Assembly (NCBI GenBank): GCA_964019135.1
Contig: OZ025260.1
Span: 20,082,254-20,146,253, forward strand
Reading direction: 5' to 3'
Length of the DNA: 64,000 nt
Source of the DNA: Arenicola marina
Lineage: Eukaryota > Annelida > Polychaeta > Arenicolidae
Numbering within the stretch: the stretch's first letter is position 1; each line of letters opens with the position of its first letter. Positions 4,437 to 63,100 of this stretch are shown here, piece after piece. The notes under the pieces were generated by a model. The model was not told the origin of the DNA, made no database searches, and was given only the letters and a program-made list of their open reading frames with translations. Position numbers and translations under genes: made by a program.

Positions 4437-4609
4437 GATGGCTTCTGAAGTCCTAGGAAAAAAGAAACCGAGAGTTAGCCTCAAGAATTCTTGACGAAAT
4501 CGTAACATACATATTGCATCTAATTTAGGTCGGCTGTATATTCAGGACGTCTTAACTACTTTTGATCACATCGTATCAATGGGAGAAGGCAGGGAGGGTG
4601 GAACCATGT

Positions 4610-19122: not shown

Positions 19123-19137
19123 GTCAAAAATAACGTT

Positions 19138-19330
19138 TAACGTGGATCACCAAGTAAGCGTTGGTAAGTGGTGTGCGACGTGTAACGTGGATCACCAAGT
19201 AAGTGTTGGTAAGTGGTGTGCGACGTGTAACGTGGATCACCAAGTAAGTGTTGGTAAGTGGTGTGCGACGTGTAACGTGGATCACCAAGTAAGCGTTGGT
19301 AAGTGGTGTGCGACGTGTAACGTGGATCAG
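19138..19330. repeat. 45-bp repeat, four copies, each with consensus 5' splice-site words
   Basis: Four near-identical units contain GTGGATCACCAAGTAAG, then TGTTGGTAAGTGGTGTGCGA. Each carries GGTAAGTG, a near-perfect U1 5' splice-site match on the plus strand, plus a second AAGTAAGTG word. They differ mainly at one C/T site. No adjoining exon was identified. Confidence 0.88.
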
Positions 19331-20667: not shown

Positions 20668-20714
20668 GTAAGTACGCTCTGCTTATTGCAGCATGCTAAA
20701 AATTGTGCGTATCA

Positions 20715-23700: not shown

Positions 23701-24330
23701 GTCTTTATCTAGTCATCACTAGCATGGTTTAAATGTATTTATCTGGTCATCTCTAGCATGGTTCAATCGTATTTATCTAGTCATCAGTAGCATGGTTTTA
23801 CCGTATTTATACAGTCATCACTGGCATGGTTTAATCGTATTTATCTAGTCATCACTATCATGGTTTAAATGTATTTATCTGGTCATCTCTAGCATGGTTC
23901 AACCGTATTTATCTAGTCGTCACTACTATGGTTTAATCGTCTTTATCTAGTCGTCACTACTATGGTTAAATCGTCTTTATCTAGTCATCACTAGCATGGT
24001 TTAACCGTCTTTATCTAGTCATCACTAGCATGGTTTAATCGTCTTTATCTAGTCGTCACTACTATGGTTTAATCGTCTTTATCTAGTCGTCACTACTATG
24101 GTTAAATCGTCTTTATCTAGTCATCACTAGCATGGTTTAACCGTCTTTATCTAATCATCACTAGCATGGTTTAACCGTATTTATCTAGTCATCACTATCG
24201 TGGATTTACATGTGTTTATCTAGTCATTACCAGCATGGCTTTATATGTATTGACCTAGTCATCACTAGCCTGCTTAAATCGTGTTTTTGTACTAACTTTC
24301 ACGGCTTTACATGTATTTATCTCACTGATT
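20715..24330. repeat. 34-bp minisatellite, about 105 copies
   Basis: The unit is near TAGTCATCACTAGCATGGTT followed by TAACCGTATTTATC. Copies diverge by 10-25% (ATCG, GTCTTT, ACGT variants), more than in the 48-bp and second 34-bp arrays further right, so this array is probably older. It lies between the candidate donor at 20668 and the acceptor at 24499, and so probably fills an intron. Confidence 0.93.
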
Positions 24331-31615: not shown

Positions 31616-31748
31616 CAGTGGCCTATTTCACGTACATAGTTTAGCCGGCTACGGGGCTTAGTCGACTAAAATCGCCTATCTTTTACATGGTAACTTTAGC
31701 CGACTAAGCCCCGTAGCCGGCTAAACTGCGTTCGTGAAATCCGCCACA
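31616..31748. mobile_element. Palindromic MITE, copy 1
   Basis: Two long inverted arms, each containing GTTTAGCCGGCTACGGGGC followed by TTAGTCGRCTAAA, flank a centre of about 30 bp. The similarity runs outward to ATTTCACG and GTGGC near both ends, giving terminal inverted repeats of about 45-50 bp in an element of about 130 bp. A related copy lies at 37123-37249 in opposite orientation. The length and TIR-only structure fit a non-autonomous DNA transposon; the superfamily is not determined. Confidence 0.75.
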
Positions 31749-36292: not shown

Positions 36293-37121
36293 ATACCAGA
36301 AGACCACAGGCAAAACCCGTCTCGGTAAAAGCCAAGAGCTATATATATTGATAGCGAGCAAGGAGAAGATGTTGTATTCTTGTATCTATAGCCATGAGGG
36401 AAGCTGGGCTAACCGTACGGCGGGGGTTAGGAAACGGGGCCGATGGTAAGGGAAGGGGCCGGGGTAAGGGAAGAGGCCGAGGATAAGCCCAGCAAACAGA
36501 TTAACGTCATGACAACGTCGACACGTTATTTTTTGGTAACGGAAGGGATCGGGGGCAAGGGACGGAACCGGATGTAGGGGAAGGGGCCTCTGGTAAGGGG
36601 ACGGCTGGGGATAACCTTAATGAGGTAAGTGGAGGGAAGGGTAATGTAGATTGTGGACGCTCTGCCTCGTCTTTGGGTCTGTGAATAGCAACGAATTCGG
36701 AAGGTCACATATAGCAGTCTTTCTGGATAAACTGGACATCAGTGGCAATCTGTCATATTTACTTTATTATGACGAAAATGTTCGTCATATGTTGGTTGGT
36801 CTAGTTCTGTTGTTGCGTTGTAAAGCTTACTTTAGGCATTACTAGCCAGCTTACGGCAACTGATTGCATTAAACTGTATTGCAGTGCATGATGGGAAGTA
36901 TCCGTTCCTGTGCAAAATGATGTCGTATAAAATAACAAAAAACAGGTCTTCTGGTTTTTGTGCTTTATACTAACTATTAAGGTAATGTTTGCTAAAGTGC
37001 GGCTTTTATGCAATGTGAAAAAAACACCAAAAAAAGCCCGCTAGCTTCCGGTTAGTGATTGTACTAAAACAGCGATCCGTACGACACTCGGCCTGCCGGG
37101 GAAGGAAGATAGAGGCCGGCC
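36293..37121. other. 3' flank with a purine-rich degenerate repeat
   Basis: From 36418 to 36610 there is a degenerate purine-rich repeat around GGTAAGGGAAGGGGCCG, probably in or just beyond the 3' UTR of the glycosyltransferase gene. The remainder is unique; no further gene is recognised. A clear AATAAA close to the stop was not found. Confidence 0.5.
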
Positions 37122-37122
37122 T

Positions 37123-37275
37123 GTTGCGGAATTCACGAACGCAGCGACTACGGGGCTTAGTCGACTAATGTTACCATGTAACCGATAGGCGAGTTTAGCC
37201 GTCTAAGTCCCGTTACGGTAGTCGAGAAACTATGTACATGAAATAGGCCTATTTTACGTACATAGTTTAGCAACA
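37123..37275. mobile_element. Palindromic MITE, copy 2, with an attached fragment of a third copy
   Basis: Relative to the copy at 31616-31748 this one is inverted: it begins GTTGCGGAATTCACGAACGC and ends ATGTACATGAAATAGGCC. Arms with CTACGGGGCTTAGTCGACTAA and TTTAGCCGTCTAAGTCC are still recognisable but more diverged. At once after it, 37249-37274 (TATTTTACGTACATAGTTTAGC) is a further copy of the element's end in the opposite direction, so a second insertion or a rearrangement has occurred here. Confidence 0.7.
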
Positions 37276-37559
37276 GAACGTCCGACTTCCAAAGACGTCA
37301 GGCGTTATGGCGAAACACAAAACATGACAGTTACGTGTCTTGTCACAAGCTGCATAATTAGCGGTTGTTCTGGCATATTGAATACTCTGACAGTCACACA
37401 CACGCCAGTCAAACTGTCTGCTGTTTCCATGGGTCGGTCCCTCCAATCAGATGTCAGCCTTTCCCTAGACTCTGGCCCCTGACGGAGATTGTCGCAAACA
37501 CAACGTGGGAATGCAGCACTCGGATATACTTGTTTTGGAACAGCTTTGGAGGTGGTGCA

Positions 37560-39137: not shown

Positions 39138-42100
39138 CTGCAATATCAGTCAACAAATCAAGATAAAGGAATGAGAAGGAATGTCTCCACGTGACGTCAC
39201 GTGACGTACTTTGCCTCAGGTAACAGATGCGAGTTCCGGACCGACTTTCTGAAAGTACGTCTCCACAAATTGGGGGGAGAGGAAGGATAGTTGTGGGAGA
39301 GAGGAACATACCGGCTGTATCTAGAACGTAGCATGTGATATCAAGTTGAAGCAAATGAAGTATATGTTCCCAAAAATATATCAGTTGAGATATTTGTGGT
39401 TGTACTATGAAACTATCAATATGTCAAAAGCGAACTATATTTATGATGCATTTGTTGGACGCAAATGTCGTATGTAAATCGGCCGTTGTTGACATTTTGC
39501 TGGGTGAGCAAACACTAACGACGATTTGTAATGTATCACTTTCCCTTTCTCCCCCCGCCCCCCACCCCGTCCCCATTCATGCGCTTTACCGCCACCCTTA
39601 CACCCACCCACGGTCTCCCCTCGTCGGCCCTGCTCGTCCTACTTTAGGTCAGGCCATGATCTGACCTATATTTCCAATTTGGGCAGACCCTAAATCAAAT
39701 GCTGGGTCTCGCAGTGGACTGGGAATTAGACATCATATAAACCAGTAATACTTAAAGTTCCTGTTGGTACCTTGAGAGACACTCGTACAACATCCTCCAC
39801 CTGTTTTCGACAGCATTATTCTTCAACGCTAGAATCATATACTCAGGTCAAGGGATCTTTGTATGTAGTAATGCATGGTGACTTCAATGACGGCTTCACG
39901 TAAATAGTCGCTAGACTGACCTTCTGGTTGTTGAAGGTCAAGGCGTGGAGTGCGGAACACGCGCTATTGCGCACGTCGCCGGAACCTGCCTCCACACAGT
40001 TGAGGAAGTAGGGAACCAGCTTCTCTGAAGTAACAACGTAGTAAGCTCATATCAATATATTGATTATCAATGAAAACTGATACATGCATGAACTGATTAA
40101 TTAATGGATAACAGGAGAAGTCGGGGGTTGAAAACACGAGGATCGGGTAGCTCTATCACCAGTTAGGACGAGTTAACGTGCCAATGATCAATACCAACCA
40201 TGCCATCTACCATGGAGATCCAACTTAATAGTTACTAAAGAATTGGGGCCAGGAGACCATTATAGAGCAATTAGGTGGAGGACACCATAATCATCATTGA
40301 CCAACCGGGACCAGGATACCTAACATTGACCAACCGGGACCAGGATACCTCACCTTGATCAACCGGGACCAGGATACCCAACATTGATCAACCGGGACCA
40401 GGATACCTCACCTTGACCAATCTGGACAGGGGACCTAACATTGACTAATCTGGACAGGGGACCTAACATTGACCAATCTGGACAGGGAACCTAACATTGA
40501 CTAATCTGGACAGGGGACCTAACATTGACCAATCTGGACAGGGGACCTAACATTGCTCCATCTGGACCAGGATACCTCACATTGACCAACCGGGACCAGG
40601 ATACCTAACATTGACCAACCGGAACCAGGATACCTCACCATGACCAACCGGGACCAGGATATCTCACCTTAACCAACCGGGACCAGGATACCCAACATTG
40701 ACCAATCTGGACCAGGATACCTCACCTTGACCAACCGGGACCAGGATACCTCACCTTGACCAACCGGGACCAGGATACCTCACCTTGACCAACCGGGACC
40801 AGGATACCTCACCTTGACCAAACGGGACCAGGATACCTAACATTGACCAACCGCGACCAGGATACCTTACCTTGACCAACCGGGACCAGGATACCTCACC
40901 TTGACCAACCGGGACCAGGATACCTCACCTTGACCAAACGGGACCAAGATACCTCACATTGACCAATCTGGAACAGGGGACCTAACATTGACAATCTGGA
41001 ACAGGGGACCTAACATGACCAAGAGAGACCAGGGGACATAACATTGACCAGTTGGGACCATGATATCTAACATTGACCAATCTGGACCAGGGCAGCTAAC
41101 ATTGACCAATGGCGACCAGAATACCAAACATGTACCAATTAGGACCAGGGAACGTAACATTGACCGAGAGACCAGGGGACCCAACATTGACCAACCGGGA
41201 CCAGGATACCTAACATTTACCAATCTGGAAAAGGGGACCTAACATTGACCAACCGGGACCGGGATACTTAACATTGCTCAATCATAGACCAGGATACCTA
41301 ACATTGCTCAAGCTGGACCAGGATACCTCACATTTACCAAGAGAGACCAGGGGACCCTAACATTGACCAACTTGGAACAGGGGACGTAACATTGACCAAC
41401 CTGGAACACGGGGACCTAACATTTAGCAACAGAGACCAGGATACCCAACATTGACCAATTGGGACCAGGATACCTAACATTGCCAATTTAGAAGAAGGAT
41501 ACTTACCATTGACCACTCGAGACATGTCAACCTGCCATTGATCACTTGAGACCTGTCGACTTACCATTGACCACTCGGGACCTGTCGAATTACCATTGAC
41601 CACTTTGAAACCTGTCAACCTACCATTGATCACTTGAGACCTGTCGACTTACCATTGACCACTCGGGACCTGTCGAATTACCATTGACCACTTTGAAACC
41701 TGTCAACCTACCATTGATCACTTGAGACCAGTCGACTTACCATTGACCACTCGGGACCTGTCGAATTACCATTGACCACTTTGAAACCTGTCAACCTACC
41801 ATTGATCACTTGAGACCTGTCGACTTACCATTGACCACTCGGGACCTGTCGAATTACCATTGACCACTTTGAAACCTGTCAACCTACCATTGATCACTTG
41901 AGACCAGTCGACTTACCATTGACCACTTTGAGACCTGTCGACCTACCATTGGCGAGCAGCTTGGGTTTGTTGGGGGCGTGGAAGCAGAGGTTCCTGAGGA
42001 TGAGGGTGGCGCTCCTCCTGTTGTGTTCGGGACCCGAACCGCCGTGCTCCAACAGCAGCGACACGGCGTCTGAACAAACAAACCGGTCGTCAGGGAGACA

Positions 42101-45100
42101 ACTACACGCGTCATAGGGTCCAGATATTACATTAATAGCGTAGGTGTGTAATCCGGCGCATATATTACCTCAATAATAACAGTATACCTGCCATTTCGTG
42201 GACACATTATGGTGACACAGACCTTGCAGTTTGAGCACCATGTTCTGTCCCTCGGCGCTGAATGAGAGGTTGACCAGGACGTCGAGCCAGAGACCGACCA
42301 GGACTCGCCCGGACTTGTTCTTCTTGTTCCTCGTGGGGGCCAATCCAGAAAAGTCATGGAGACAGTTACTCTGAAAATTTAAAAGAAAATAGATTATATA
42401 ACAAAAAAGCCGAAAGGTCCAAAGGGAAACATCAGACAGAATAACAATAACATATATTGGCATATTTAATGGTGTCCATTACAAGGTCTTAATGCCTACC
42501 TGCCTCATTATTCCCGTTACAATTTCTTAATGTCTACCTTCCACAGTATACCCCTGGCCTCCTGTCACAATGCCTTAATGTCTACCTTACACAGTATACC
42601 CCTGGCCTCTGGGCACAGTCTTAATGCCCACCTTCCACAGTATACCCCTGGCCTCCTGTCACAGTGCCTTCATGCCTACCTTCCACAGTATACCCCTGGC
42701 CTCCTGTCATAGTGCCTTAATGCCTCCCTTCCAGAGTATACCCCTGGCCTCCTGTCACAGGGTCTTAATGCCTACCTTCCACAGTATACCCCTGGCCTCC
42801 TGTCACAGGGTCTTAATGCCTACCTTCCACAGTATACCCCTGGCCTCCTGTCACAGGGTCTTAATGCCTACCTTCCACAGTATACCCCTGGCCTCCTGTC
42901 ACAATGCCTTAATGCCTACCTTCCACAGTATACCCCTGGCCTCCTGTCACAATGCCTTAATGCCTACCTTCCACAGTATACCCCTGGCCTCCTGTCACAA
43001 TGCCTTAATGCCTACCTTCCACAGTATACCCCTGGCCTCCTGTCACAGGGTCTTAATGCCTACCTTCCACAGTATACCCCTGGCCTCCTGTCACAGGGTC
43101 TTAATGCCTACCTTCCACAGTATACCCCTGGCCTCCTGTCACAGGGTCTTAATGCCTACCTTCCACAGTATACCCCTGGCCTCCTGACACAGGGTCTTAA
43201 TGCCTACCTTCCACAGTATACCCCTGGCCTCCTGTCACAGGGTCTTAATGCCTACCTTCCACAGTATACCCCTGGCCTCCTGTCACAGGGTCTTAATGCC
43301 TACCTTCCACAGTATACCCCTGGCCTCCTGTCACAGGGTCTTAATGCCTACCTTCCACAGTATACCCCTGGCCTCCTGTCACAGGGTCTTAATGCCTACC
43401 TTCCACAGTATACCCCTGGCCTCCTGTCACAGCCTTAATGCCTACCTTCCACAGTATACCCCTGGCCTCCTGTCATAGTGCCTTAATGCCTCCCTTCCAC
43501 AGTATACCCCTGGCCTCCTGTCACAATGCCTTAATGCCTACCTTACACAGTATACCCCTGGCCTCCTGTCACAGGGTCTTAATGCCTACCTTCCACAGTA
43601 TACCCCTGGCCTCCTGTCACAGGGTCTTAATGCCTACCTTCCACAGTATACCCCTGGCCTCCTGTCACAGGGTCTTAATGCCTACCTTCCACAGTATACC
43701 CCTGGCCTCCTGTCACAGGGTCTTAATGCCTACCTTCCAGAGTATACCCCTGGCCTCCTGTCACAGGGTCTTAATGCCTACCTTCCACAGTATACCCCTG
43801 GCCTCCTGACACAGGGTCTTAATGCCTACCTTCCACAGTATATTCCTGGCCTCCTGTCACAATGCCTTAATGCCTACCTTCCACAGTATATCCCTGGCCT
43901 CCTGTCACAGCCTTAATGCCTACCTTCCACAGTATACCCCTGGCCTCCTGTCACAGCGTCTTAATGCCTACCTTCCACAGTATACCCCTGGCCTCCTGTC
44001 ACAGCGTCTTAATGCCTACCTTCCACAGTATACCCCTGGCCTCCTGTCACAATGCCTTAATGCCTACCTTCCACAGTATACCCCTGGCCTCCTGTCACAA
44101 TGCCTTAATGCCTACCTTTCACAGTATACCCCTGGCCTCCTGTCACAGCGTCTTAATGCCTACCTTCCACAGTATACCCCTGGCCTCCTGACACAGTCTT
44201 AATGCCTACCTTCCACAGTATACCCCTGGCCTCCTGTCACAATGCCTTAATGCCTACCTTCCACAGTATACCCCTGGCCTCCTGACACAGGGTCTTAATG
44301 CCTACCTTCCACAGTATACCCCTGGCCTCCTGACACAGGGTCTTAATGCCTACCTTCCACAGTATACCCCTGGCCTCCTGTCACAGCGTCTTAATGCCTA
44401 CCTTCCACAGTATACCCCTGGCCTCCTGTCACAGCGTCTTAATGCCTACCTTCCACAGTATACCCCTGGCCTTCTGTCACAATGCCTTAATGCCTACCTT
44501 CCACAGTATACCCCTGGCCTCCTGACACAGTCTTAATGCCTACCTTCCACAGTATACCCCTGGCCTCCTGTCACAATGCCTTAATGCCTACCTTCCACAG
44601 TATACCCCTGGCCTCCTGTCACAATGCCTTCATGCCTACCTTCCACAGTATACCCCTGGCCTCCTGTCACAGTCTTAATGCCTACCTTCCACAGTATACC
44701 CCTGGCCTCCTGTCACAATGCCTTAATGCCTACCTTCCACAGTATACCCCTGGCCTCATGTCACAATGCCTGAATGCCTACCTTCCACAGTATACCCTTG
44801 GCCTCCTGTCACAATGCCTTAATGCCAACCTTCCACAGTATACCCCTGGCCTCCTGTCACAATGCCCTAATGCCTACCTTCCACAGTATACCCCTGGCCT
44901 CCTGTCACAGCCTTAATGCCTACCTTCCACAGTATACCACTGGCCTCCTGTCACAGCCTTAATGCCTACCTTCCACAGTATACCCCTGACCTCCTGTCAC
45001 AGCTTTAATGCCTACCTTCCACAGTATACCCCTGGCCTCCTGTCACAATGCCTTCATGCCTACCTTCCACAGTATACCCCTGGCCTCCCGGCACAATGCC

Positions 45101-48100
45101 CTAATGCCTACCTTCCACAGTATACCCCTGGCCTCCTGACACAGTCTTAATGCCTAGCTTCCACAGTATACCCCTGGCCTCCTGTCACAATGCCTTAATG
45201 CCTACCTTCCACAGTATACCCCTGGCCTCCTGACACAGGGTCTTAATGCGTACCTTTCAAAGTATACCCCTGGCCTCCTGTCACAATGCCTTAATGCCTA
45301 CCTTCCACAGTATACCCCTGGCCTCCTGTCACAGCCTTAATGCCTACCTTCCACAGTATACCCCTGGCCTCCTGTCACAATGCCTTAATGCATACCTTCC
45401 ACAGTATACCCCTGGCCTCCTGTCACAATGCCTTAATGCCTACCTTCCACAGTATACCCCTGGCCTCCCGGCACAGCCTTAATGCCTACCTTCCACAGTA
45501 TACCCCTGGCCTCCTGTCACAATGCCTTAATGCCTACCTTCCACAGTATACCCCTGGCCTCCTGGCACAGCCTTAATGCCAACCTTCCACAGTATACCCC
45601 TGGCCTCCTGTCACAGCGTCTTAATGCCTACCTTCCACAGTATACCCCTGGCCTCCTGTCACAATGCCTTAATGCCTACCTTCCACAGTATACCCCTGGC
45701 CTCCTGTCACAATGCCTTAATGCCTACCTTTCACAGTATACCCCTGGCCTCCTGTCACAGCGTCTTAATGCCTACCTTCCACAGTATACCCCTGGCCTCC
45801 TGACACAGTCTTAATGCCTACCTTCCACAGTATACCCCTGGCCTCCTGTCACAATGCCTTAATGCCTACCTTCCACAGTATACCCCTGGCCTCCTGACAC
45901 AGGGTCTTAATGCCTACCTTCCACAGTATACCCCTGGCCTCCTGACACAGGGTCTTAATGCCTACCTTCCACAGTATACCCCTGGCCTCCTGTCACAGCG
46001 TCTTAATGCCTACCTTCCACAGTATACCCCTGGCCTCCTGTCACAGCGTCTTAATGCCTACCTTCCACAGTATACCCCTGGCCTTCTGTCACAATGCCTT
46101 AATGCCTACCTTCCACAGTATACCCCTGGCCTCCTGACACAGTCTTAATGCCTACCTTCCACAGTATACCCCTGGCCTCCTGTCACAATGCCTTAATGCC
46201 TACCTTCCACAGTATACCCCTGGCCTCCTGTCACAATGCCTTCATGCCTACCTTCCACAGTATACCCCTGGCCTCCTGTCACAGTCTTAATGCCTACCTT
46301 CCACAGTATACCCCTGGCCTCCTGTCACAATGCCTTAATGCCTACCTTCCACAGTATACCCCTGGCCTCATGTCACAATGCCTGAATGCCTACCTTCCAC
46401 AGTATACCCCTGGCCTCCTGTCACAATGCCTTAATGCCAACCTTCCACAGTATACCCCTGGCCTCCTGTCACAATGCCCTAATGCCTACCTTCCACAGTA
46501 TACCCCTGGCCTCCTGTCACAGCCTTAATGCCTACCTTCCACAGTATACCACTGGCCTCCTGTCACAGCCTTAATGCCTACCTTCCACAGTATACCCCTG
46601 ACCTCCTGTCACAGCTTTAATGCCTACCTTCCACAGTATACCCCTGGCCTCCTGTCACAATGCCTTCATGCCTACCTTCCACAGTATACCCCTGGCCTCC
46701 CGGCACAATGCCCTAATGCCTACCTTCCACAGTATACCCCTGGCCTCCTGACACAGTCTTAATGCCTAGCTTCCACAGTATACCCCTGGCCTCCTGTCAC
46801 AATGCCTTAATGCCTACCTTCCACAGTATACCCCTGGCCTCCTGACACAGGGTCTTAATGCGTACCTTTCAAAGTATACCCCTGGCCTCCTGTCACAATG
46901 CGTTAATGCCTACCTTCCACAGTATACCCCTGGCCTCCCGTCACAATGCCTTAATGCCTACCTTCCACAGTATACCCCTGGCCTCCTGTCACAGCCTTAA
47001 TGCCTACCTTCCACAGTATACCCCTGGCCTCCTGTCACAATGCCTTAATGCATACCTTCCACAGTATACCCCTGGCCTCCTGTCACAATGCCTTAATGCC
47101 TACCTTCCACAGTATACCCCTGGCCTCCCGGCACAGCCTTAATGCCTACCTTCCACAGTATACCCCTGGCCTCCTGTCACAATGCCTTAATGCCTACCTT
47201 CCACAGTATACCCCTGGCCTCCTGGCACAGCCTTAATGCCTATCTTCCACAGTATACCCCTGGCCTCCTGTCACAATGTCTTAATGCCTACCTTCCACAG
47301 TATACCCCTGGCCTCCTGTCACAGCCTTAATGCCTACCTTCCACAGTATACCCCTGGCCTCCTGACACAGTCTTAATGCCTACCTTCCACAGTATACCCC
47401 TGGCCTCCTGTCACAATGCCTTAATGCCTACCTTCCACAGTATACCCCTGGCCTCCTGACACAATGCCTTAATGCCTACCTTCCCCAGTATACCCCTGGC
47501 CTCCTGTCACAATGCCTTAATGCCTACCTTCCACAGTATACCCCTGGCCTCCCGGCACAATGCCCTAATGCCTACCTTCCACAGTATACCCCTGGCCTCC
47601 TGTCACAATGCCTTAATGCCTACCTTCCACAGTATACCCCTGGCCTCCCGGCACAGCCTTAATGCCTACCTTCCACAGTATACCCCTGGCCTCCTGTCAC
47701 AATGCCTTAATGCCTACCTTCCACAGTATACCCCTGGCCTCCTGTCACAATGCCTTAATGCCTACCTTCCACAGTATACCCCTGGCCTCCTGTCACAGCC
47801 TTAATGCCTACCTTCCACAGTATACCCCTGGCCTCCTGTCACAATGCCTTAATGCCTACCTTCCACAGTATACCCCTGGCCTCCTGTCACAATGCCTTAA
47901 TGCCTACCTTCCACAGTATACCCCTGGCCTCCTGACACAGTCTTAATGCCTACCTTCCACAGTATACCCCTGGCCTCCTGTCACAATGCCTTAATGCCTA
48001 CCTTCCACAGTATACCCCTGGCCTCCTGACACAGGGTCTTAATGCCTACCTTCCACAGTATACCCCTGGCCTCCTGTCACAATGCCTTAATGCCTACCTT

Positions 48101-51100
48101 CCACAGTATACCCCTGGCCTCCTGTCACAATGCCTTAATGCCTACCTTCCACAGTATACCCCTGGCCTCCTGTCACAATGCCTTAATGCCTACCTTCGAC
48201 AGTATACCCCTGGCCTCCTGTCACAATGCCTTAATGCCTACCTTCCACAGTATACCCCTGGCCTCCTGTCACAATGCCTTAATGGCTACCTTCCACAGTA
48301 TACCCCTGGCCTCCTGACACAGGGTCTTAATGCCTACCTTCCACAGTATACCCCTGGCCTCCTGTCACAATGCCTTAATGCCTACCTTCCACAGTATACC
48401 CCTGGCCTCCTGTCACAATGCCTTAATGCCTACCTTCCACAGTATACCCCTGGCCTCCTGACACAGTCTTAATGCCTACCTTCCACAGTATACCCCTGGC
48501 CTCCTGTCACAATGCCTTAATGCCTACCTTCCACAGTATACCCCTGGCCTCCTGACACAGGGTCTTAATGCGTACCTTTCAAAGTATACCCCTGGCCTCC
48601 TGTCACAATGCCTTAATGCCTACCTTCCACAGTATACCCCTGGCCTCCTGTCACAATGCCTTAATGCCTACCTTCCACAGTATACCCCTGGCCTCCTGTC
48701 ACAGCCTTAATGCCTACCTTCCACAGTATACCCCTGGCCTCCTGTCACAATGCCTTAATGCATACCTTCCACAGTATACCCCTGGCCTCCTGACAGTCTT
48801 AATGCCTACCTTCCACAGTATACCCCTGGCCTCCTGTCACATTGCCTTAATGCCTACCTTCCACAGTATACCCCTGGCCTCCTGACAGTCTTAATGCCTA
48901 CCTTCCACAGTATACCCCTGGCCTCCTGACAGTCTTAATGCCTACCTTCCACAGTATACCCCTGGCCTCTGGGCACAGTCTTAATGTCTACCTTCCACAG
49001 TATACCCCTGGCCTCCTGACACAGTCTTAATGCCTACCTTCCACAGTATACCCCTGGCCTCCTGTCACAATGCCTTAATGCCTACCTTCCACAGTATACC
49101 CCTGGCCTCCTGTCACAATGCCTTAATGCCTACCTTCCACAGTATACCCCTGGCCTCCTGACAGTCTTAATGCCTACCTTCCACAGTATACCCCTGGCCT
49201 CCTGTCACATTGCCTTAATGCCTACCTTCCACAGTATACCCCTGGCCTCCTGACAGTCTTAATGCCTACCTTCCACAGTATACCCCTGGCCTCCTGACAG
49301 TCTTAATGCCTACCTTCCACAGTATACCCCTGGCCTCCTGTCACATTGCCTTGATGCCTACCTTCCACAGTATACCCCTGGCCTCCCGGCACAGCCTTAA
49401 TGCCTACCTTCCACAGTATACCCCTGGCCTCCTGTCACAATGCCTTAATGCCTACCTTCCACAGTATACCCCTGGCCTCCTGGCACAGCCTTAATGCCTA
49501 TCTTCCACAGTATACCCCTGGCCTCCTGTCACAATGTCTTAATGCCTACCTTCCACAGTATACCCCTGGCCTCCTGGCACAGCCTTAATGCCTACCTTCC
49601 ACAGTATACCCCTGGCCTCCTGACACAGTCTTAATGCCTACCTTCCACAGTATACCCCTGGCCTCCTGTCACAATGCCTTAATGCCTACCTTCCACAGTA
49701 TACCCCTGGCCTCCTGACACAATGCCTTAATGCCTACCTTCCACAGTATACCCCTGGCCTCCTGTCACAATGCCTTAATGCCTACCTTCCACAGTATACC
49801 CCTGGCCTCCCGGCACAATGCCCTAATGCCTACCTTCCACAGTATACCCCTGGCCTCCTGTCACAATGCCTTAATGCCTACCTTCCACAGTATACCCCTG
49901 GCCTCCTGTCACAATGCCTTAATGCCTACCTTCCACAGTATACCCCTGGCCTCCTGACACAGTCTTAATGCCTACCTTCCACAGTATACCCCTGGCCTCC
50001 TGTCACAATGCCTTAATGCCTACCTTCCACAGTATACCCCTGGCCTCCTGACACAGGGTCTTAATGCCTACCTTCCACAGTATACCCCTGGCCTCCTGTC
50101 ACAATGCCTTAATGCCTACCTTCCACAGTATACCCCTGGCCTCCTGTCACAATGCCTAAATGCCTACCTTCCACAGTATACCCCTGGCCTCCTGTCACAA
50201 TGCCTTAATGCCTACCTTCCACAGTATACCCCTGGCCTCCCGGCACAATGCCCTAATGCCTACCTTCCACAGTATACCCCTGGCCTCCTGTCACAATGCC
50301 TTAATGCCTACCTTCCACAGTATACCCCTGGCCTCCTGTCACAATGCCTTAATGCCTACCTTCCACAGTATACCCCTGGCCTCCTGACACAGTCTTAATG
50401 CCTACCTTCCACAGTATACCCCTGGCCTCCTGTCACAATGCCTTAATGCCTACCTTCCACAGTATACCCCTGGCCTCCTGACACAGGGTCTTAATGCCTA
50501 CCTTCCACAGTATACCCCTGGCCTCCTGTCACAATGCCTTAATGCCTACCTTCCACAGTATACCCCTGGCCTCCTGTCACAATGCCTTAATGCCTACCTT
50601 CCACAGTGTACCCCTGGCCTCCTGTCACAATGCCTTAATGCCTACCTTCCACAGTATACCCCTGGCCTCCTGTCACAATGCCTAAATGCCTACCTTCCAC
50701 AGTACACCCCTGGCCTCCTGACACAGTCTTAATGCCTACCTTCCACAGTATACCCCTGGCCTCCTGACACAGGGTCTTAATGCCTACCTTCCACAGTATA
50801 CCCCTGGCCTCCTGACACAGGGTCTTAATGCCTACCTTCCACAGTATACCCCTGGCCTCCTGTCACAATGCCTTAATGCCTACCTTCCACAGTATACCCC
50901 TGGCCTCCTGACACAGGGTCTTAATGCCTACCTTCCACAGTATACCCCTGGCCTCCTGTCACAATGCCTTAATGCCTACCTTCCACAGTATACCCCTGGC
51001 CTCCTGACAGTCTTAATGCCTACCTTCCACAGTATACCCCTGGCCTCCTGTCACAATGCCTTAATGCATACCTTCCACAGTATACCCCTGGCCTCCTGAC

Positions 51101-54100
51101 ACAGGGTCTTAATGCCTACCTTCCACAGTATACCCCTGGCCTCCTGTCACAATGCCTTAATGCCTACCTTCCACAGTATACCCCTGGCCTCCTGTCACAA
51201 TGCCTTAATGCCTACCTTCCACAGTATACCCCTGGCCTCCTGACACAGGGTCTTAATGCCTACCTTCCACAGTATACCCCTGGCCTCCTGTCACAGCGTC
51301 TTAATGCCTACCTTCCACAGTATACCCCTGGCCTCCTGTCACAATGCCTTAATGCCTACCTTCCACAGTATACCCCTGGCCTCCTGACACAGGGTCTTAA
51401 TGCCTACCTTCCACAGTATACCCCTGGCCTCCTGTCACAATGCCTTAATGCCTACCTTCCACAGTATACCCCTGGCCTCCTGTCACAATGCCTTAATGCC
51501 TACCTTCCACAGTATACCCCTGGCCTCCTGTCACAATGCCTTAATGCCTACCTTCCACAGTATACCCCTGGCCTCCTGACACAGCCTTAATGCCTACCTT
51601 CCACAGTATACCCCTGGCCTCCTGTCACAGTCTTAATGCCTACCTTCCACAGTATACCCCTGGCCTCCTGTCACAGGGTCTTAATGCCTACCTTCCACAG
51701 TATACCCCTGGCCTCCTGTCACAGCCTTAATGCCTACCTTCCACAGTATACCCCTGGCCTCCTGTCACAATGCCTTAATGCCTACCTTCCACAGTATACC
51801 CCTGGCCTCCTGACACAGGGTCTTAATGCCTACCTTCCACAGTATACCCCTGGCCTCCTGACACAGGGTCTTAATGCCTACCTTCCACAGTATATCCCTG
51901 GCCTCCTGTCACAATGCCTTAATGCCTACCTTCCACAGTATATCCCTGGCCTCCTGTCACAGCCTTAATGCCTACCTTCCACAGTATACCCCTGGCCTCC
52001 TGTCACAGCGTCTTAATGCCTACCTTCCACAGTATACCCCTGGCCTCCTGTCACAATGCCTTAATGCCTACTTTCCACAGTATACCCCTGGCCTCCTGTC
52101 ACAATGCCTTAATGCCTACCTTCCACAGTATACCCCTGGCCTCCTGTCACAGCGTCTTAATGCCTACCTTCCACAGTATACCCCTGGCCTCCTGACACAG
52201 TCTTAATGCCTACCTTCCACAGTATACCCCTGGCCTCCTGTCACAATGCCTTAATGCCTACCTTCCACAGTATACCCCTGGCCTCCTGACACAGGGTCTT
52301 AATGCCTACCGTCCACAGTATATCCCTGGCCTCCTGTCACAGGGTCTTAATGCCTACCTTCCACAGTATACCCCTGGCCTCCTGTCACAGCGTCTTAATG
52401 CCTACCTTCCACAGTATACCCCTGGCCTCCTGTCACAATGCCTTAATGCCTACCTTCCACAGTATACCCCTGGCCTCCTGTCACAATGCCTTAATGCCTA
52501 CCTTCCACAGTATACCCCTGGCCTCCTGTCACAGCGTCTTAATGCCTACCTTCCACAGTATACCCCTGGCCTCCTGACACAGTCTTAATGCCTACCTTCC
52601 ACAGTATACCCCTGGCCTCCTGACACAGGGTCTTAATGCCTACCTTCCACAGTATACCCCTGGCCTCCTGTCACAGCGTCTTAATGCCTACCTTCCACAG
52701 TATACCCCTGGCCTCCTGTCACAATGCCTTAATGCCTACCTTCCACAGTATACCCCTGGCCTCCTGACACAGGGTCTTAATGCCTACCTTCCACAGTATA
52801 CCCCTGGCCTCCTGTCACAGCGTCTTAATGCCTACCTTCCACAGTATACCCCTGGCCTCCTGTCACAATGCCTTAATGCCTACCTTCCACAGTATACCCC
52901 TGGCCTCCTGTCACAATGCCTTAATGCCAACCTTCCACAGTATACCCCTGGCCTCCTGTCACAATGCCTTAATGCCTACCTTCCACAGTATACCCCTGGC
53001 CTCCTGTCACAGCCTTAATGCCTACCTTCCACAGTATACCCCTGGCCTCCTGTCACAATGCCTTAATGCCTACCTTCCACAGTATACCCCTGGCCTCCTG
53101 ACACAGTCTTAATGCCTACCTTCCACAGTATACCCCTGGCCTCCTGTCACAGCGTCTTAATGCCTACCTTCCACAGTATACCCCTGGCCTCCTGTCACAA
53201 TGCCTTAATGCCTACCTTCCACAGTATACCCCTGGCCTCCTGTCACAGCGTCTTAATGCCTACCTTCCACAGTATACCCCTGGCCTCCTGTCACAATGCC
53301 TTAATGCCTACCTTCCACAGTATACCCCTGGCCTCCTGTCACAGGGTCTTAATGCCTACCTTCCACAGTATACCCCTGGCCTCCTGTCACAGCGCCTTAA
53401 TGCCTACCTTCCACAGTATACCCCTGGCCTCCTGTCACAGGGTCTTAATGCCTACCTTCCACAGTATACCCCTGGCCTCCTGTCACAGGGTCTTAATGCC
53501 TACCTTCCACAGTATACCCCTGGCCTCCTGTCACAGGGTCTTAATGCCTACCTTCCACAGTATACCCCTGGCCTCCTGTCACAGCGTCTTAATGCCTACC
53601 TTCCACAGTATACCCCTGGCCTCCTGTCACAATGCCTTAATGCCTACCTTCCACAGTATACCCCTGGCCTCCTGTCACAGCGTCTTAATGCCTACCTTCC
53701 ACAGTATACCCCTGGCCTCCTGTCACAATGCCTTAATGCCTACCTTCCACAGTATATCCCTGGCCTCCTGTCACAGCGTCTTAATGCCTACCTTCCACAG
53801 TATACCCCTGGCCTCCTGTCACAATGCCTTAATGCCTACCTTCCACAGTATACCCCTGGCCTCTGGGCACAGTCTTAATGCCTACCTTCCACAGTATACC
53901 CCTGGCCTCCTGTCACAATGCCTTAATGCCTACCTTCCACAGTATACCCCTGGCCTCCTGACACAGGGCCTTAATGCCTACCTTCCACAGTATACCCCTG
54001 GCCTCCTGTCACAATGCCTTAATGCCTACCTTCCACAGTATACCCCTGGCCTCCTGACACAGGGTCTTAATGCCTACCTCCCACAGTATACCCCTGGCCT

Positions 54101-57100
54101 CCTGTCACAGTCTTAATGCCTACCTTCCACAGTATACCCCTACCCTCATGTCACAGTCGTTATGCCTACCTTCCACAGTATACCCCTGGCCTCCTGTCAC
54201 AATGCCTTAATGCCTACCTTCCACAGTATACCCCTGGCCTCCTGTCACAGCGTCTTAATGCCTACCTTCCACAGTATACCCCTGGCCTCCTGTCACAATG
54301 TCTTAATGCCTACCTTCCACTGTATACCCCTGGCCTCCTGTCACAATGCCTTAATGCCTACCTTCCACAGTATACCCCTGGCCTCCTGTCACAATGCCTT
54401 AATGCCTACCTTCCACTGTATACCCCTGGCCTCATGTCACAGCCTTAATGCCTACCTTCCACAGTATACCCCTGGCCTCCTGGCACAATGCCTTAATGCC
54501 TACCTTCCACAGTATACCCCTGGCCTCTGGGCACAGTCTTAATGCCTACCTTCCACAGTATACCCCTGGCCTCCTGACACAGCCTTAATGCCTACCTTCC
54601 ACAGTATACCCCTGGCCTCCTGACACAGTCTTAATGCCTACCTTCCACAGTATACCCCTGGCCTCCTGTCAAAATGTCTTAATGTCTACCTTCCACAGTA
54701 TACCCCTGGCCTCCTGTCACAATGCCTTAATGCCTCCCTTCCACAGTATACCCCTGGCCTCCTGTCACAGCCTTAATGCCTACCTTCCACAGTATACCCC
54801 TGGCCTCTGGGCACAGTCTTAATGCCTACCTTCCACAGTATACCCCTGGCCTCCTGACACAGCCTTAATGCCTACTTTCCACAGTATACCCCTGGCCTGC
54901 TGTCACAATGCCTTAATGCCTACCTTCCACAGTATACCCCTGACCTCCTGTCACAGCCTTAATGCCTACCTTCCACAGTATACCCCTGGCCTCCTGACAC
55001 AGCCTTAATGCCTACCTTCCACAGTATACCCCTGGGCTCCTGTCACAGCCTTAATGCCTATCTTCCACAGTATACCCCTGACCTCCTGTCACAGCCTTAA
55101 TGCCTATCTTCCACAGTATACCCCTGGCCTCCTGTCACAGCCTTAATGCCTACCTTCCACAGTATACCCCTGGCCTCTGGGCACAATGCCTTAATGCCTA
55201 CCTTCCACAGTATACCCCTGGCCTCTGGGCACAGGGCCAGTGTGGTCAGTACGCTGAAGCCGGCCTTCAACAAGACTGGGTTGGTCGCCGTGGATTCTCT
55301 CTGCAGTAACTTGATGAGGCAGTGAACCAGCGAGTTGTTGCTGTACTGTGGCCTACTACTCGGCTGCCTGTCCCCAGTCTGGGAGGACGACGTGAAGGCC
55401 AGCGATCTACAAGCTGAACAAAGCGAAGACGTACCCTGTAATAGGACCTGAGTCACAACAATGATATCAGTATAATAACATAGGTAACCCCCTAACAGTA
55501 TCAGGGGTCTGGAAGGGGTAAACCGCGACACGCGACACAGAGATATTTAAAAAATCGACATTTGACATTCTCAAATTCCGACATTGAGAATCTGAAAAAA
55601 CGACATTGAGCCAAAAAGCAACACGGAACGTCGTGAAGAATCGACATTCGACACCGAGCATTTTGAAAAATCGACATGCACACCCCCTTCCATACCCCTA
55701 GTATCAACACAATGCAGGCCCCCACCCCGCCCGCAAGCTTACCATGGTTACCTGGGGTGAAGGATACATTGAGTGATGGTTACCTGGAGTGATGGTTACC
55801 TGGGATGAAGGTTACTTTGAGTGATGGTTACCTGGGGTGATGGTTACCTGGGGTAATGGTTACCTGGGGTGATAGGTTACCTGGGGTGATGGCTACTTGG
55901 AGTGATGGTTACCTGGGGTGATGGGTTATCTGGGGTGATGGTTACCTGGGTAGATGGGTTACCTGGGGTGATGGGTTACCTGGGGTGATGGTTACTGGGA
56001 GTGATGGTTACCTGGGGTGGTGGTTAACTGGGGTGATGGTTAGCTGGGGTGATGGTTACCTGGGGTGATGGGTTACCTGGGGTGATGGTTACTGGGAGTG
56101 ATGGTTACCTGGGGTGGTGGTTAACTGGGGTGATGGTAACCTGGGGTGATGGTTACCTGGGGTGATGGTTACCTGGAGTGATGGTTACCTGGGGTGATGG
56201 TTACCTGGGATGATGGTTACCTGAGGTGAGGGTTACCTGGAGTGATGGTAACCTGGGGTGATGGTAACCTGGGGTGATGGTTACCTCGGGTGATGGTTAC
56301 CTGGGGTAATGGTTACCTTGCGTGATGGCTACCTTGCGTGATGGTTACCTAGGGTGACGGTTACCTGGGGTGATGGTTACCTGAGGTGATGGTAACCTGG
56401 GGTGATGGTAACCTTGGGTGATGGTTACTTGGGGTGATGGTTACCTCGGGTGATGGTTACCTCGGGTGATGGTTACCTGGGGTGATGGTTACCTGGGGTG
56501 ATAGTTACCTTGGGTGATGGTAACCTGGGGTGATTGTAACCTGGAGTGATAGTTACCTGGGGTGATGGTAACCTGGGGTGATATTTACCTGGGGTGATGG
56601 TAACCTGGGATGATGGTAACCTTGATTGATAGTTACCTGAGGTGATGGTAACCTGGGGTGATGGTTACCTGGGGGGGGGGTGTTAATCTGGGGTGATGGT
56701 TACCTGGAGTGATAGTTACCTGGGGTGATGGTAACCTGGGGTGATGGTTACCTGAGGTGATGGTAACCTGGGGTGATGGTAACCTGGGGTGATGGTAACC
56801 TGGGGTGATGGTTACCTCGGGTGATGGTTACCTGGAGTGATAGTTACTTGTGGTGATGGTAGCCTGGGGTGATGGTTACCTGGGGTGGTGTTAACCTGGT
56901 GTGATGGTTACCTTGCGTGATGGTTACTTTGCGTGATGGTTACCTGGGGTGATGGTAACCTGGGGTGATGGTAACCTGGGGTGATGATAACCTGGGGTGA
57001 TGGTAACTTGGGGTGATGGTTACCTCCGGTGATGGTTACCTGGAGTGATGGTTACCTAGAGTGATGGTAACCTGAGGTGATGGTAACCTGGGGTGATGGT

Positions 57101-60100
57101 AACCTGGGGTGATGGTTACCTGGAGTGATGGTTACCTCGGGTGATGGTTACTTGGGGTAATGGTTGCCTGGGGTAATGGTTACCTGGGATGGTGGTTACC
57201 TAGTGATGGTAACCTGGAGTGATAGTTACCTGGGGTGATGACCTGGCGTTAGGCTTACCTGTAGGACACCTGGCTGTGAAGGTGGCCAGTAGCAGCAGTG
57301 TGGCTTGCAATAGCGGGGGTTCCTGGAGGCACCAGGCCCACAGGCCGTGCACCAGGCTGGCCAGCCCAGAGTCGTGTGCTGCCATCTATTCGGAGAGCCG
57401 GAAACCGTTCAGCACAGATACAGTATCCCGTCCTCATAGTATTGAGGCCATGAGGCTTGTTTTACAATGACAGCTTACGGCTTTACTTTCAGGAAATCAT
57501 ATAAATATGTATTCATCAAACGTAGCCAAAGTGAGGTCCGGCCTGTTAATTTCTGAAAGCATTGAATATTCATGAGCGCTACTTGCAAATTACTCAACGA
57601 TTTCACAAGTTTGCCATGAACTTTAATGTCATGGAGGCAGCTAATGTGGAGTGTATTATATTCATGGCTGAGCGCTTTTTCGTCGAGTTCAAGCCATAAA
57701 AATGTGAGAGAATCTTGAATCTTGGAGACGTCATTGTCGTCCCTCATGAAATCAGAATATGACCCACCCCCTCTCCTCTCCGGACCCCAGGAACACGAAC
57801 ACAGAAGAATACCATGAGCTTAAGTTGTGTTGAAATGTCTATAAACCTCGGATGTGTTCACGTGTCACTGTAATTCGTACACATAGTGCAACATAGCTAA
57901 CGAGTAAGGCTTAAATAGATGCTAGATTGTTATATTTTCATTATCATATTTATATTTATCTCATCAGCTCACGTCATTTCATTATTGTCGGTAAATACCA
58001 CTTGGGCTAATGTCTATTGTTGAATTTTACATACCGACGTTAAAATAAAACTTTATTTCATCATATCTTATGTTATCTTAACAACCTGACCACTTTACTA
58101 ACCTTAACGTCCTGGTTTTCGAACATGAAGTTCCTCAGAAGGTCAAAGGTCAGGACCACGTCGCATATGATAGGATTCTCCTGAAAGCGTACGACGCACA
58201 TCTTTACACTAACAAAAAAAAGCCTGACAAACCTAATTGACAATAACTGCAGTGTGATGCGGAAAAAAACTGAGAAACTGGCTTTGAAACGCCAATCTAG
58301 GCATCTGGTGAGTATAAACCTAGACCAAACGACAGGTCATCGATTCGATAACTGCGGTAAGCTGTGTCGGTTACAGATAGGCTTATTTAGTCATAAGCGA
58401 AAATGCCGCGAAACAATTCTTACTACCTAAACCAAAACAAAAGCTGCAAATCCATCGTCTTTCGCAGACGGACGGATGCCAACCAGCCAACCGGTACAAC
58501 ACGTGTCAGCGGTGTACGTTACCTTGGCTGCCGTCCCTGCCGGTTTGCCGGGGAGCAGGGCGTCCATGCTGAGCTTGGTGTGCAGGTACCGAATCTGCTC
58601 ACATATAGTCTCCACAAAGCCATCTGAAATGAAATGTTGATGTTTTAGGCCGCTTTTGTGCACATGAAGGCTAAATTGGGCCAAGGAACCTCCCGGGACG
58701 ATGAAGGATGACGGAATGAAACAGGTCCCAGATCAAAGCCATCTGAAGTGAATATATAAACCACATACAGGTTCCAACATACCGATACAGTATCTACAAC
58801 ATACCGATACAGTATCTACAACATACCGATACAGTATCTACAACATACCGATACAGTATCTACAACATACCGATACAGTATCTACAACATACCGATACAG
58901 TATCTACAACATACCGATACAGTATCTACAACATACCGATACAGTATCTACAACATACCGATACAGTGTCTACAACATACCGATACAGTATCTACAACAT
59001 ACCGATACAGTATCTACAACATACGGATACAGTATCTACAACATACCGATACAGTATCTACAACATACCGTTACACTATCTACAACATACCGATACAGTA
59101 TCTACAACATACCGATACACTATCTACAACATACCGATACAGTATCTACAACATATCGATACAGTATCTACAACATACCAATACAGTATCTACAACATAC
59201 CGATACACTATCTACAACATACCTATACACTATCTACAACATACCGATACAGTATCTAACACATACCGATACAGTATCTAACACATACCGATACAGTATC
59301 TACAACACTCACCATTGAATTATAATGCTTAGTCTTATCCCACTGGAGCCGATACTTTGGCCCTAAAAGTCACCCTCGATACCAGTGGTTTAAGCAATGT
59401 TAAATGCACTCACCCTCCAGTGGCAATACCTTAGCGCTAACACTCACCCTCCAGTGGCAATACCTTAGCGCTAACACTCACCCTCCAGTGGTAATACCTT
59501 AGCGCTAACACTCACCCTCCAGTGGCAATACCTTAGCGCTAACACTCACCCTCCAGTGGCAATACCTTAGCGCTAACACTCACCCTCCAGTGGCAATACC
59601 TTAGCACTAACACTCACCCTCCAGTGGCAATACCTTAGCGCTAACACTCACCCTCCAGTGGTAATACCTTAGCGCCAACACTCACCCTCCAGTGGCAATA
59701 CCTTAGCGCTAACACTCACCCTCCAGTGGTAATACCTTAGCGCCAACACTCACCCTCCAGTGGCAATACCTTAGCGCCAACACTCACCCTCCAGTGGTAA
59801 TACCTTAGCGCTAACACTCACCCTCCAGTGGTAATACCTTAGCGCCAACACTCACCCTCCAGTGGCAATACCTTAGCGCCAACACTCACCCTCCAGTGGT
59901 AATACCTTAGCGCCAACACTCACCCTCCAGTGGCAATACCTTAGCGCCAACACTCACCCTCCAGTGGTAATACCTTAGCGCCAACACTCACCCTCCAGTG
60001 GCAATGCCTTAGCGCTAACACTCACCCTCCAGTGGTAATACCTTAGCGCCAACACTCACCCTCCAGTGGCAATACCTTAGCGCTAACACTCACCCTCCAG

Positions 60101-63100
60101 TGGTAATACCTTAGCGCCAACACTCACCCTCCAGTGGTAATACCTTAGCGCCAACACTCACCCTCCAGTGGCAATACCTTAGCGCCAACACTCACCCTCC
60201 AGTGGCAATACCTTAGCGCCAACACTCACCCTCCAGTGGTAATACCTTAGCGCTAACACTCACCCTCCAGTGGTAATACCTTAGCGCCAACACTCACCCT
60301 CCAGTGGTAATACCTTAGCGCCAACACTCACCCTCCAGTGGCAATACCTTAGCGCCAACACTCACCCTCCAGTGGCAATACCTTAGCGCCAACACTCACC
60401 CTCCAGTGGCAATACCTTAGCGCCAACACTCACCCTCCAGTGGTAATACCTTAGCGCCAACACTCACCCTCCAGTGGTAATACCTTAGCGCCAACACTCA
60501 CCCTCCAGTGGCAATACCTTAGCGCCAACACTCACCCTCCAGTGGTAATACCTTAGCGCTAACACTCACCCTCCAGTGGTAATACCTTAGCGCCAACACT
60601 CACCCTCCAGTGGTAATACCTTAGCGCCAACACTCACCCTCCAGTGGCAATACCTTAGCGCCAACACTCACCCTCCAGTGGCAATACCTTAGCGCCAACA
60701 CTCACCCTCCAGTGGCAATACCTTAGCGCTAACACTCACCCTCCAGTGGTAATACCTTAGCGCCAACACTCACCCTCCAGTGGTAATACCTTAGCGCCAA
60801 CACTCACCCTCCAGTGGTAATACCTTAGCGCCAACACTCACCCTCCAGTGGCAATACCTTAGCGCCAACACTCACCCTCCAGTGGCAATACCTTAGCGCC
60901 AACACTCACCCTCCAGTGGCAATACCTTAGCGCTAACACTCACCCTCCAGTGGTAATACCTTAGCGCCAACACTCACCCTCCAGTGGTAATACCTTAGCG
61001 CCAACACTCACCCTCCAGTGGCAATACCTTAGCGCCAACACTCACCCTCCAGTGGTAATACCTTAGCGCCAACACTCACCCTCCAGTGGCAATACCTTAG
61101 CGCCAACACTCACCCTCCAGTGGTAATACCTTAGCGCTAACACTCACCCTCCAGTGGTAATACCTTAGCGCCAACACTCACCCTCCAGTGGCAATACCTT
61201 AGCGCCAACACTCACCCTCCAGTGGTAATACCTTAGCGCCAACACTCACCCTCCAGTGGCAATACCTTAGCGCTAACACTCACCCTCCAGTGGTAATACC
61301 TTAGCGCTAACACTAACCCTCCAGTGGCAATGCCTTAGCGCTAACACTCACCCTCCAGTGGTTATACCTTAGCGCCAACACTCACCCTCCAGTGGCAATA
61401 CCTTAGCGCCAACACTCACCCTCCAGTGGCAATACCTTAGCGCCAACACTCACCCTCCAGTGGCAATACCTTAGCGCCAACACTCACCCTCCAGTGGCAA
61501 TACCTTAGCGCCAACACTCACCCTCCAGTTGTAATACCTTAGCGCTAACACTCACCCTCCAGTGGCAATACCTTAGCGCTAACACTCACCCTCCAGTGGT
61601 AATACCTTAGCGCTAACACTAACCCTCCAGTGGCAATACCTTAGCGCTAACACTCACCCTCCAGTGGTAATACCTTAGCACTAACACTCACCCTCCAGTG
61701 GCAATACCTTAGCGCCAACACTCACCCTCCAGTGGTAATACCTTAGCGCTAACACTCACCCTCCAGTGGTAATACCTTAGCGCCAACACTCACCCTCCAG
61801 TGGTAATACCTTAGCGCTAACACTCACCCTCTAGTGGCAATACCTTAGCGCTAACACTCACCCTCCAGTGGTAATACCTTAGCGCTAACACTCACCCTCC
61901 AGTGGCAATACCTTAGCGCTAACACTCACCCTCCAGTGGCAATACCTTGGCGCTAACACTCACCCTCCAGTGGTAATACCTTAGCGCTAACACTCACCCT
62001 CCAGTGGCAATACCTTAGCGCTAACACTCACCCTCCAGTGGCAATACCTTAGCGCTAACACTCACCCTCCAGTGGTAATACCTTAGCGCTAACACTCACC
62101 CTCCAGTGGCAATACCTTAGCGCTAACACTCACCCTCCAGTGGTAATACCTTAGCGCTAACACTCACCCTCCAGTGGCAAAACCTTAGCGCTAACACTCA
62201 CCCTCCAGTGGTAATACCTTAGCGCTAACACTCACCCTCCAGTGGCAATACCTTAGCGCTAACACTCACCCTCCAGTGGCAATACCTTAGCGCTAACACT
62301 CACCCTCCAGTGGTAATACCTTAGCGCTAACACTCACCCTCCAGTGGCAATACCTTAGCGCCAACACTCACCCTCCAGTGGTAATACCTTAGCGCTAACA
62401 CTCACCCTCCAGTGGTAATACCTTAGCGCTAACACTCACCCTCCAGTGGTAATACCTCAGCACTAACACTCACCCTCCAGTGGCAATACCTTAGCGCTAA
62501 CACTCACCCTCCAGTGGCAATACCTTAGCGCTAACACTCACCCTCCAGTGGCAATACCTTAGCGCTAACACTCACCCTCCAGTGGCAATACCTTAGCGCT
62601 AACACTCACCCTCCAGTGGCAATACCTCAGCGCTAACACTCACCCTCCAGCGCCGACACTTTGGCCTTGGGACTCAGCGTGAGGAGCGACTTCAGAGCGT
62701 TGATGACGGCCATCTTGATGACGTAGAAATCCTCCAGGGGGCGCCTTGCGATGACGTCATACATCCGGACGAGCGCCGGACATAGCTGAGTGCTGCTGCT
62801 GCTCTTGTTGAACATGTCATCATCATCTGTGTCATAAGGCAAGGCATATCGTTACCAGGCCTGTCTCTAACTTATCACTTATCACTGGGTGCCTTTACTG
62901 CCGTTAGAGCCAGGCAGCATTTGCTGTCTTTGCGGTATTGCAGCGCATATTGCCGCGGCTGGAGCTGATCGAATAAATTTTAGCCAGAAAAAGCCTTGAC
63001 ATTGCGAGTTACGATACTGAATCAAACACCGCACAGACAGCAAATGCTGCCTGGCTCTAACGGCACACATGCTGCTTAGAGGCAGGCCTGGTAAGGCATA

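Follow-up and report, generated by a model that had tools for sequence, protein, structure and literature searches.

How does a gene choose its 5' splice site when the intron that follows holds hundreds of copies of that site, and how does such an intron arise? Both questions are raised by a 64,000-nucleotide stretch of the genome of the polychaete Arenicola marina (contig OZ025260.1, forward-strand positions 20,082,254 to 20,146,253; the window, whose own coordinates are used below). The window carries a gene of ten exons, A to J, on the minus strand from 63913 to 38995. The exons, positioned by hand on the sequence and consistent in phase, together form one open frame of 466 amino acids with GT-AG introns throughout. 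Large tandem arrays occupy four of the nine introns (B, E, F and H); introns A, C, D, G and I have no row in the Tandem Repeats Finder (TRF) output. The largest case is intron F (42371–55201, 12,831 bp), which separates exon F (55202–55413, 212 bp) from exon G (42223–42370), the two exons joining in phase.

Exon F ends in TGCCCAGAGGCCAGGGGTATACTGTGGAAG at base 55202, and the intron opens with GTAGGCATT at base 55201. Intron F is made up of 12,723 bp of array and 108 bp of unique sequence. The array as a whole (42479–55225, minus strand) reaches into the exon and consists of 268 units beyond the true junction, each of which repeats the exon end together with the 5' splice site. The units are mostly 48 or 46 bp long, with spacings of 48 bp (n = 198), 46 bp (n = 62), 44 bp (n = 7) and 38 bp (n = 1); TRF reports 268.0 copies with 93% match over 42512–55225. 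The unique 3' end (42371–42478) contains the pyrimidine tract and the only good acceptor of the intron, as judged with the frequency tables that underlie all donor and acceptor scores given here.

A first-pass annotation had proposed that the 24 exon bases and 9 intron bases at this junction recur in most units of the intron. On the gene strand this 33-base junction was found in 206 exact copies, rising to 258, 265 and 268 copies when one, two or three mismatches were allowed, and even at six mismatches no match fell outside 42470–55260. The opposite strand, searched for exact copies only, contained none. A looser pattern returned 269 junctions including the true one, one of them differing by 10 bases, so that 206 of 269 are exact. 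The figure of 24 exon bases proved an understatement: those bases do recur, and as many as 33 exon bases together with the donor are copied exactly inside the array. The exon variant CCCAGAGG, described earlier as reaching to about 42606, has six copies besides the exon itself (55182, 54812, 54532, 53868, 48974 and 42614). The true donor 9-mer has 237 further identical copies in the intron and none on its other strand, which bears out the earlier mention of hundreds of identical decoys. The 33 exonic and donor columns of the array are 97–100% identical, and common variants are confined to a small number of positions in the intronic linker, at about +13 to +23.

Chance similarity between unit and exon, one condition under which the first-pass annotation would have withdrawn its claim, does not account for these copies. 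Neither the exon part alone nor the whole junction was matched by any of 2000 non-array stretches (0/2000 each). The exonic part of the unit, moreover, sits in a frame that runs on into exon G. An origin of the array by copying of the exon F junction is thus well supported, as is the earlier proposal that a duplication across the exon–intron boundary seeded it. In the mechanism that we favor as the simplest, a tandem duplication would have taken in about 32 bases of the exon end, the donor and about 16 bases of the intron. The copies would then have multiplied by unequal exchange and segmental duplication, and an intron with 108 bp of unique sequence may have grown in this way to 12.8 kb. The array of intron F is most probably a boundary-spanning minisatellite of the type called a mirage in amphioxus, grown from a duplicated junction and tolerated by splicing.

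Could the array be a product of the assembly, either collapsed or inflated by the assembler or with the exon end filled in from array reads? Exact internal duplications of 828 bp and 491 bp share a single offset of 1612 bp and could be an assembly duplication, and according to the available text of PMC3087553 one globin mirage seems to have been assembled aberrantly in its draft version. Nevertheless, the window contains no N, the 268 units comprise 71 distinct sequences, the end of exon F sits in a ten-exon open frame, and a similar layout is seen in other introns of the gene with unrelated units. An assembly artefact is therefore regarded as highly improbable. The same offset relates two near-exact large segments of the array, 45582–46901 and 43970–45289, whose duplication reflects either recent exchange or the assembly.

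The first-pass annotation had missed a wider pattern: the arrays of the other three introns also begin at the donor or close to it. TRF places the start of array B 7 bases, that of F 24 bases and that of H 5 bases inside the exon, and that of E 18 bases past the first base of the intron. The units differ among the four arrays in length and sequence, with the true donor in register in each. Array B (59407–62650, 34-bp unit, about 95 copies) begins within exon B (62644–62826), where the last exon bases CTGGAGG and the donor open the array. At exon H (41947–42069), the last five bases CAATG and the donor open the near part of array H (41501–41951, 29-bp unit), whose consensus ATG/GTAAGT outscores the true ATG/GTAGGT (the slash marks the splice junction). 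Its far part (40295–41486) is built from a diverged 29-bp unit. Array E (55744–57240), which follows the hand-placed exon E (57259–57385), has a 16-bp unit, CAG/GTAACC..., and is a weak case. The true donor lies 16 bp from the first decoy and the exon copy is limited to CAG; no exon bases recur exactly with the donor (three do with one mismatch), and a span across the boundary is absent or unclear.

The four array starts were compared with starts placed uniformly over the unique sequence of the respective introns, giving p = 1.2e-8. With intron F, the choice of the first-pass annotation, left out, p was 1.3e-6. A lenient version, counting starts up to 18 bp from the donor and reserving 50 bp at the acceptor, gave p = 3.3e-4, and 1.0e-3 without F. 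Sequence comparisons pointed in the same direction. Scored against the rest of their own introns, the junctions of B, F and H beat 100 of 100 shuffles, and against the array consensus the junctions of B, F and near H exceeded all 2000 non-array stretches. Arrays B, F and H span the junction, and E remains weak. Introns B and H probably underwent a process like that proposed for intron F, likewise at their donors, as perhaps did E. Acceptors were compared as well: only one of nine, that of exon C, has an extra copy that beats all 100 shuffles (19 bases, 58752–58734), and this copy has no array. It reflects a duplication of the exon C acceptor about 120 bp upstream in intron B, 18 of 19 bases of TTCAYTTCAG/ATGGCTTTG being shared between 58734–58752 and 58615–58633 on the minus strand.

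Intron B also bears on the direction of copying. An array that existed beforehand might instead have overwritten the exon end or created the intron, and gain of introns from mirages has been proposed for the globin genes in the available text of PMC3087553. Past the far end of array B, at 59339–59362 on the minus strand, lies a degenerate 24-base copy of the exon B end. First spotted by eye and then scored, it reached 14, a value that none of 2000 real non-array stretches and none of 5000 shuffles attained. Over the upstream stretch of the exon B end, this copy agrees with the exon at 14 of 15 bases and the array consensus at 9 of 15, so that the copy is nearer to these exon bases than the consensus is. 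In intron F the exon variant CCCAGAGG is rare within the array. Both points argue against the reverse direction, which we consider very unlikely. Farther into intron B is a secondary array (58775–59307, 22-bp unit, 24 copies), which showed no similarity to the exon B junction.

The first-pass annotation also asked how only the correct donor is used. Decoys that match or exceed the score of the true donor number 238 in intron F, 94 in B and 21 in H. The number is 0 in E, where 51 decoys nevertheless score 6 or more. Antisense sites scoring 6 or more are absent from B, F and H and number six in E. Acceptors present a different picture in intron F, where the best decoy acceptor scores −1.7 compared with 6.3 for the true one. 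Exon definition is established knowledge, and the units of array F, which lack a usable acceptor, would not qualify as exons under it. The acceptor of exon F itself could then pair only with the 5'-most donor or with one of the first few. An array rich in donors and devoid of a competing acceptor is therefore the likely answer to the question of donor choice, as far as it can be read from the genome, and the array would be expected to be removed cleanly by splicing. It is probably tolerated because all but its first few donors are too far from an acceptor to bound an exon. In intron F the first decoy is in frame and open, and its use would add 16 codons, encoding VGIKALCPEARGILWK; later decoys lead to stop codons. 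The first decoy of intron H is likewise in frame and open, with 10 residues added.

Two further ways of silencing the decoys were considered and rejected. Local RNA folding does not hide them. The true donor has a mean unpaired probability of 0.50 and is not set apart from the decoys, of which the first 11 have means of 0.38–0.79 and a sample of 40 of the other 257 has a mean of 0.61 (SD 0.14). Folding was no better than in shuffles for two segments from array F, one from B and one from H (z = 0.21, −0.76, −0.97 and 1.24), whereas array E did fold better (z = −2.88; exon G control, z = 1.67). Purging of the decoy donors of intron F as a whole was also rejected: GT is intact in 259 of 268 decoys, inside the range of the other pairs of adjacent bases (256–268 of 268). 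A narrower form of selection, in which only the inner donors closest to the exon were inactivated, would fit the loss of GT in the second and third decoys (AAGATAGGC; at least two of the nearest three broken, permutation p = 0.0035). Nevertheless, this pattern was noticed post hoc, both decoys share one change that may be a single copied event, and GT is intact in the decoys closest to the exon in B and H. Weak selection against nearby decoys is thus unlikely.

The opposite proposal is that the donors are kept for a function, for example by binding U1 small nuclear ribonucleoprotein (U1 snRNP) against premature polyadenylation or by yielding alternative-donor isoforms. GT is retained in 96 of 96 donor-pattern matches of array B, the true donor included, and in nearly all decoys of F. 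The near-H decoy consensus outscores the true donor, and the first decoy is in frame in both F and H. But array F conserves GT no better than other pairs of adjacent bases, in array E only 88 of 97 pattern matches keep it, and in far H it is in register in 0 of 23 pattern-matched units, others, missed by the pattern, carrying AAG/GTGAGG. The units are homogenized in any case, and the length of the intron is itself a product of the array. A selected function is accordingly held to be quite improbable, and the array is probably a by-product that arose passively.

A number of results weigh against the reading of these arrays as tolerated copies of their junctions, and they are set out together here. 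The exon part taken alone is decisive in F and gave no signal in H, where 1212 of 2000 stretches score as high; in B the signal is modest (8 of 2000, or 41 once the last three bases are removed), and in E it is weak (31 of 2000). For B and H, the case depends on the junction taken as a whole (0 of 2000 each). The E junction score was matched by 4 of 100 shuffles of the comparison with the rest of the intron, and its match to the consensus was reached by 5 of 2000 non-array stretches (9 of 2000 for far H). The best gene-strand donor exceeded that of shuffled units in the 34-bp unit of B (p = 0.016), the 16-bp unit of E (0.000) and near H (0.009), and did not in the 48-bp unit of F (0.088), the 22-bp unit of B (donor-like TCG/GTATGT; 0.116) or far H (0.234). 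Of 30 unit-strand tests on the 15 other arrays of the window, 5 gave p below 0.05. With three of six gene units and 5 of 30 tests elsewhere below this level, the donor motif by itself says little; the argument relies on where the arrays lie relative to the junction and on the exon bases that were copied.

None of these 15 array blocks was tied to a coding intron, the surroundings of some having been examined. One of them, 20711–24269, begins about 42 bp past a possible untranslated-region donor; no good donor occurs in its unit, where the best scores are −1.0 and 2.2, and this block counts against a universal donor rule. Splicing adds further difficulties. In introns B and H, one decoy acceptor each equals or outscores the true one. 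The first decoys of B and E are out of frame and lead to stop codons, the third decoy of E being back in frame. Donor choice and array length, moreover, have been read from genomic DNA. Finally, passivity accounts for the tolerance of the arrays and not for their location at donors, since arrays elsewhere inside introns would be equally harmless.

To explain this location, donors may be hot spots of duplication, perhaps coupled to transcription, with intronic minisatellites arising at 5' splice sites as a rule in this genome. The suggestion is tentative, and we lean against it; its support comes from a single gene, in which four introns, three of them unambiguous, show the pattern. If it is true, introns grow from the donor end by copying their own junction, and the donor used would be the first one after an acceptor-defined exon and not the strongest. 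A G-rich strand prone to R-loops was tried as a common cause and rejected. G–C skew on the gene strand is +0.45 in array B, −0.53 in E, +0.48 in F and +0.20 in H, and as the signs differ, a G-rich strand is not common to them.

Intron F amounts to a natural experiment on splice-site choice: 237 of its decoys match the true donor exactly, and by the frequency tables used it has no competing acceptor. Models of donor choice predict opposite outcomes for introns F and H. Four array introns in one gene, each with its array at or near the donor, also suggest how intronic minisatellites originate and how introns grow.

The 466-residue protein is HEAT/ARM-like, with all Pfam matches under the curated cut-off (DUF383, E = 2.2e-4; HEAT, E = 0.055). 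The gene may be rotatin-like, its protein resembling the C-terminal end of rotatin, a name that no search confirmed. The sole PDB match, to an unrelated protein (E = 0.27), carries no meaning. The protein had no match in viral contigs, and in genomes of prokaryote species seven stretches fitted a pattern, with none confirmed. Intron A contains an inverted repeat with 41-nt arms that are 95% complementary (62899–63065).

Tandem arrays fill about 63% of the window, in 21 blocks with units of 13 to 48 bp that were selected and merged by hand from the TRF output. A 45-bp array at 19133–19329 (4.4 copies, 98%), outside any gene that was placed, has two donor-like sites per unit (CAA/GTAAGC and TTG/GTAAGT). 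Two long uninterrupted frames, at 1878–4541 (minus strand) and 34355–36286 (plus strand), match the Pfam nucleotide-diphospho-sugar transferase family PF03407 (E = 7e-11 and 1.9e-16). An inverted repeat at 31618–31747, with 53-nt arms that are 89% complementary, resembles a miniature inverted-repeat transposable element. The region near 37100–37280 looks similar to it by eye, and only a 21-nt inverted repeat was found there. Non-array sequence has a G+C content of 49.4%, above the approximately 41% of Branchiostoma.

How does this locus compare with known systems? The giant introns of Drosophila reportedly owe their length to tandem satellite repeats, as intron F does to its array; to our knowledge, those repeats are not copies of a splice junction of the host gene. 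The founding paper on amphioxus Adh is that of Canestro et al. (2002). Minisatellites near alternative exons have been described in Caenorhabditis elegans in the available text of PMC4039745, and tandem repeats in Daphnia in a paper whose main text does not contain the word 'splice' (PMC3152781). Introns of amphioxus VCBP3 hold whole exons or parts of exons that resemble the adjacent ones and in some cases have canonical splice sites (data not shown there; PMC2632668), whereas the available text describes no tandem array of the present kind. In the AGGT proto-splice model of intron gain by tandem genomic duplication, an exon stretch with AG/GT is copied to yield new intronic sequence (available text of PMC3087553). 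Here no new intron position is needed, and the array enlarges the intron from its donor side.

The closest relatives are the amphioxus mirages, tandem repeats that cross exon–intron boundaries. The available portions of two papers place them in Adh3 and two globin genes, BflGb6 and BflGb9, at either boundary (PMC3087553), and in PGBD5 and troponin C (PMC3902484), with normal splicing reportedly undisturbed; Adh3 units measure 10–72 bp, and the locus shows somatic instability. The Adh precedent that the first-pass annotation had cited is therefore real, and the kind of repeat was already known. The present arrays share two features with them. In F, B and H the unit spans both sides of the boundary, with 33 (F), 7 (B) and 5 (H) exon bases exact next to the donor, and the splice signal of the boundary is itself repeated (237 donor 9-mers in F; GT in every donor-pattern match of B). 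In the open literature, the subscription papers lying mostly outside the search, none of the matches listed reported donor-anchored arrays this large or several in one gene, so that size and recurrence were not met with in the literature searched. The hosts described in the available text of PMC3087553 and PMC3902484 are cephalochordates; the host here is an annelid. BflGb6 has 6 and 3 units of 150–160 bp in two haplotypes, compared with 268 further units and 12.7 kb at a single junction here, and measured against BflGb6 and the other cases in those portions of the two papers, the earlier description of a far larger example holds. Globin mirages, finally, occur at either boundary, whereas the four array introns of this one gene all have their arrays at or near the donor.

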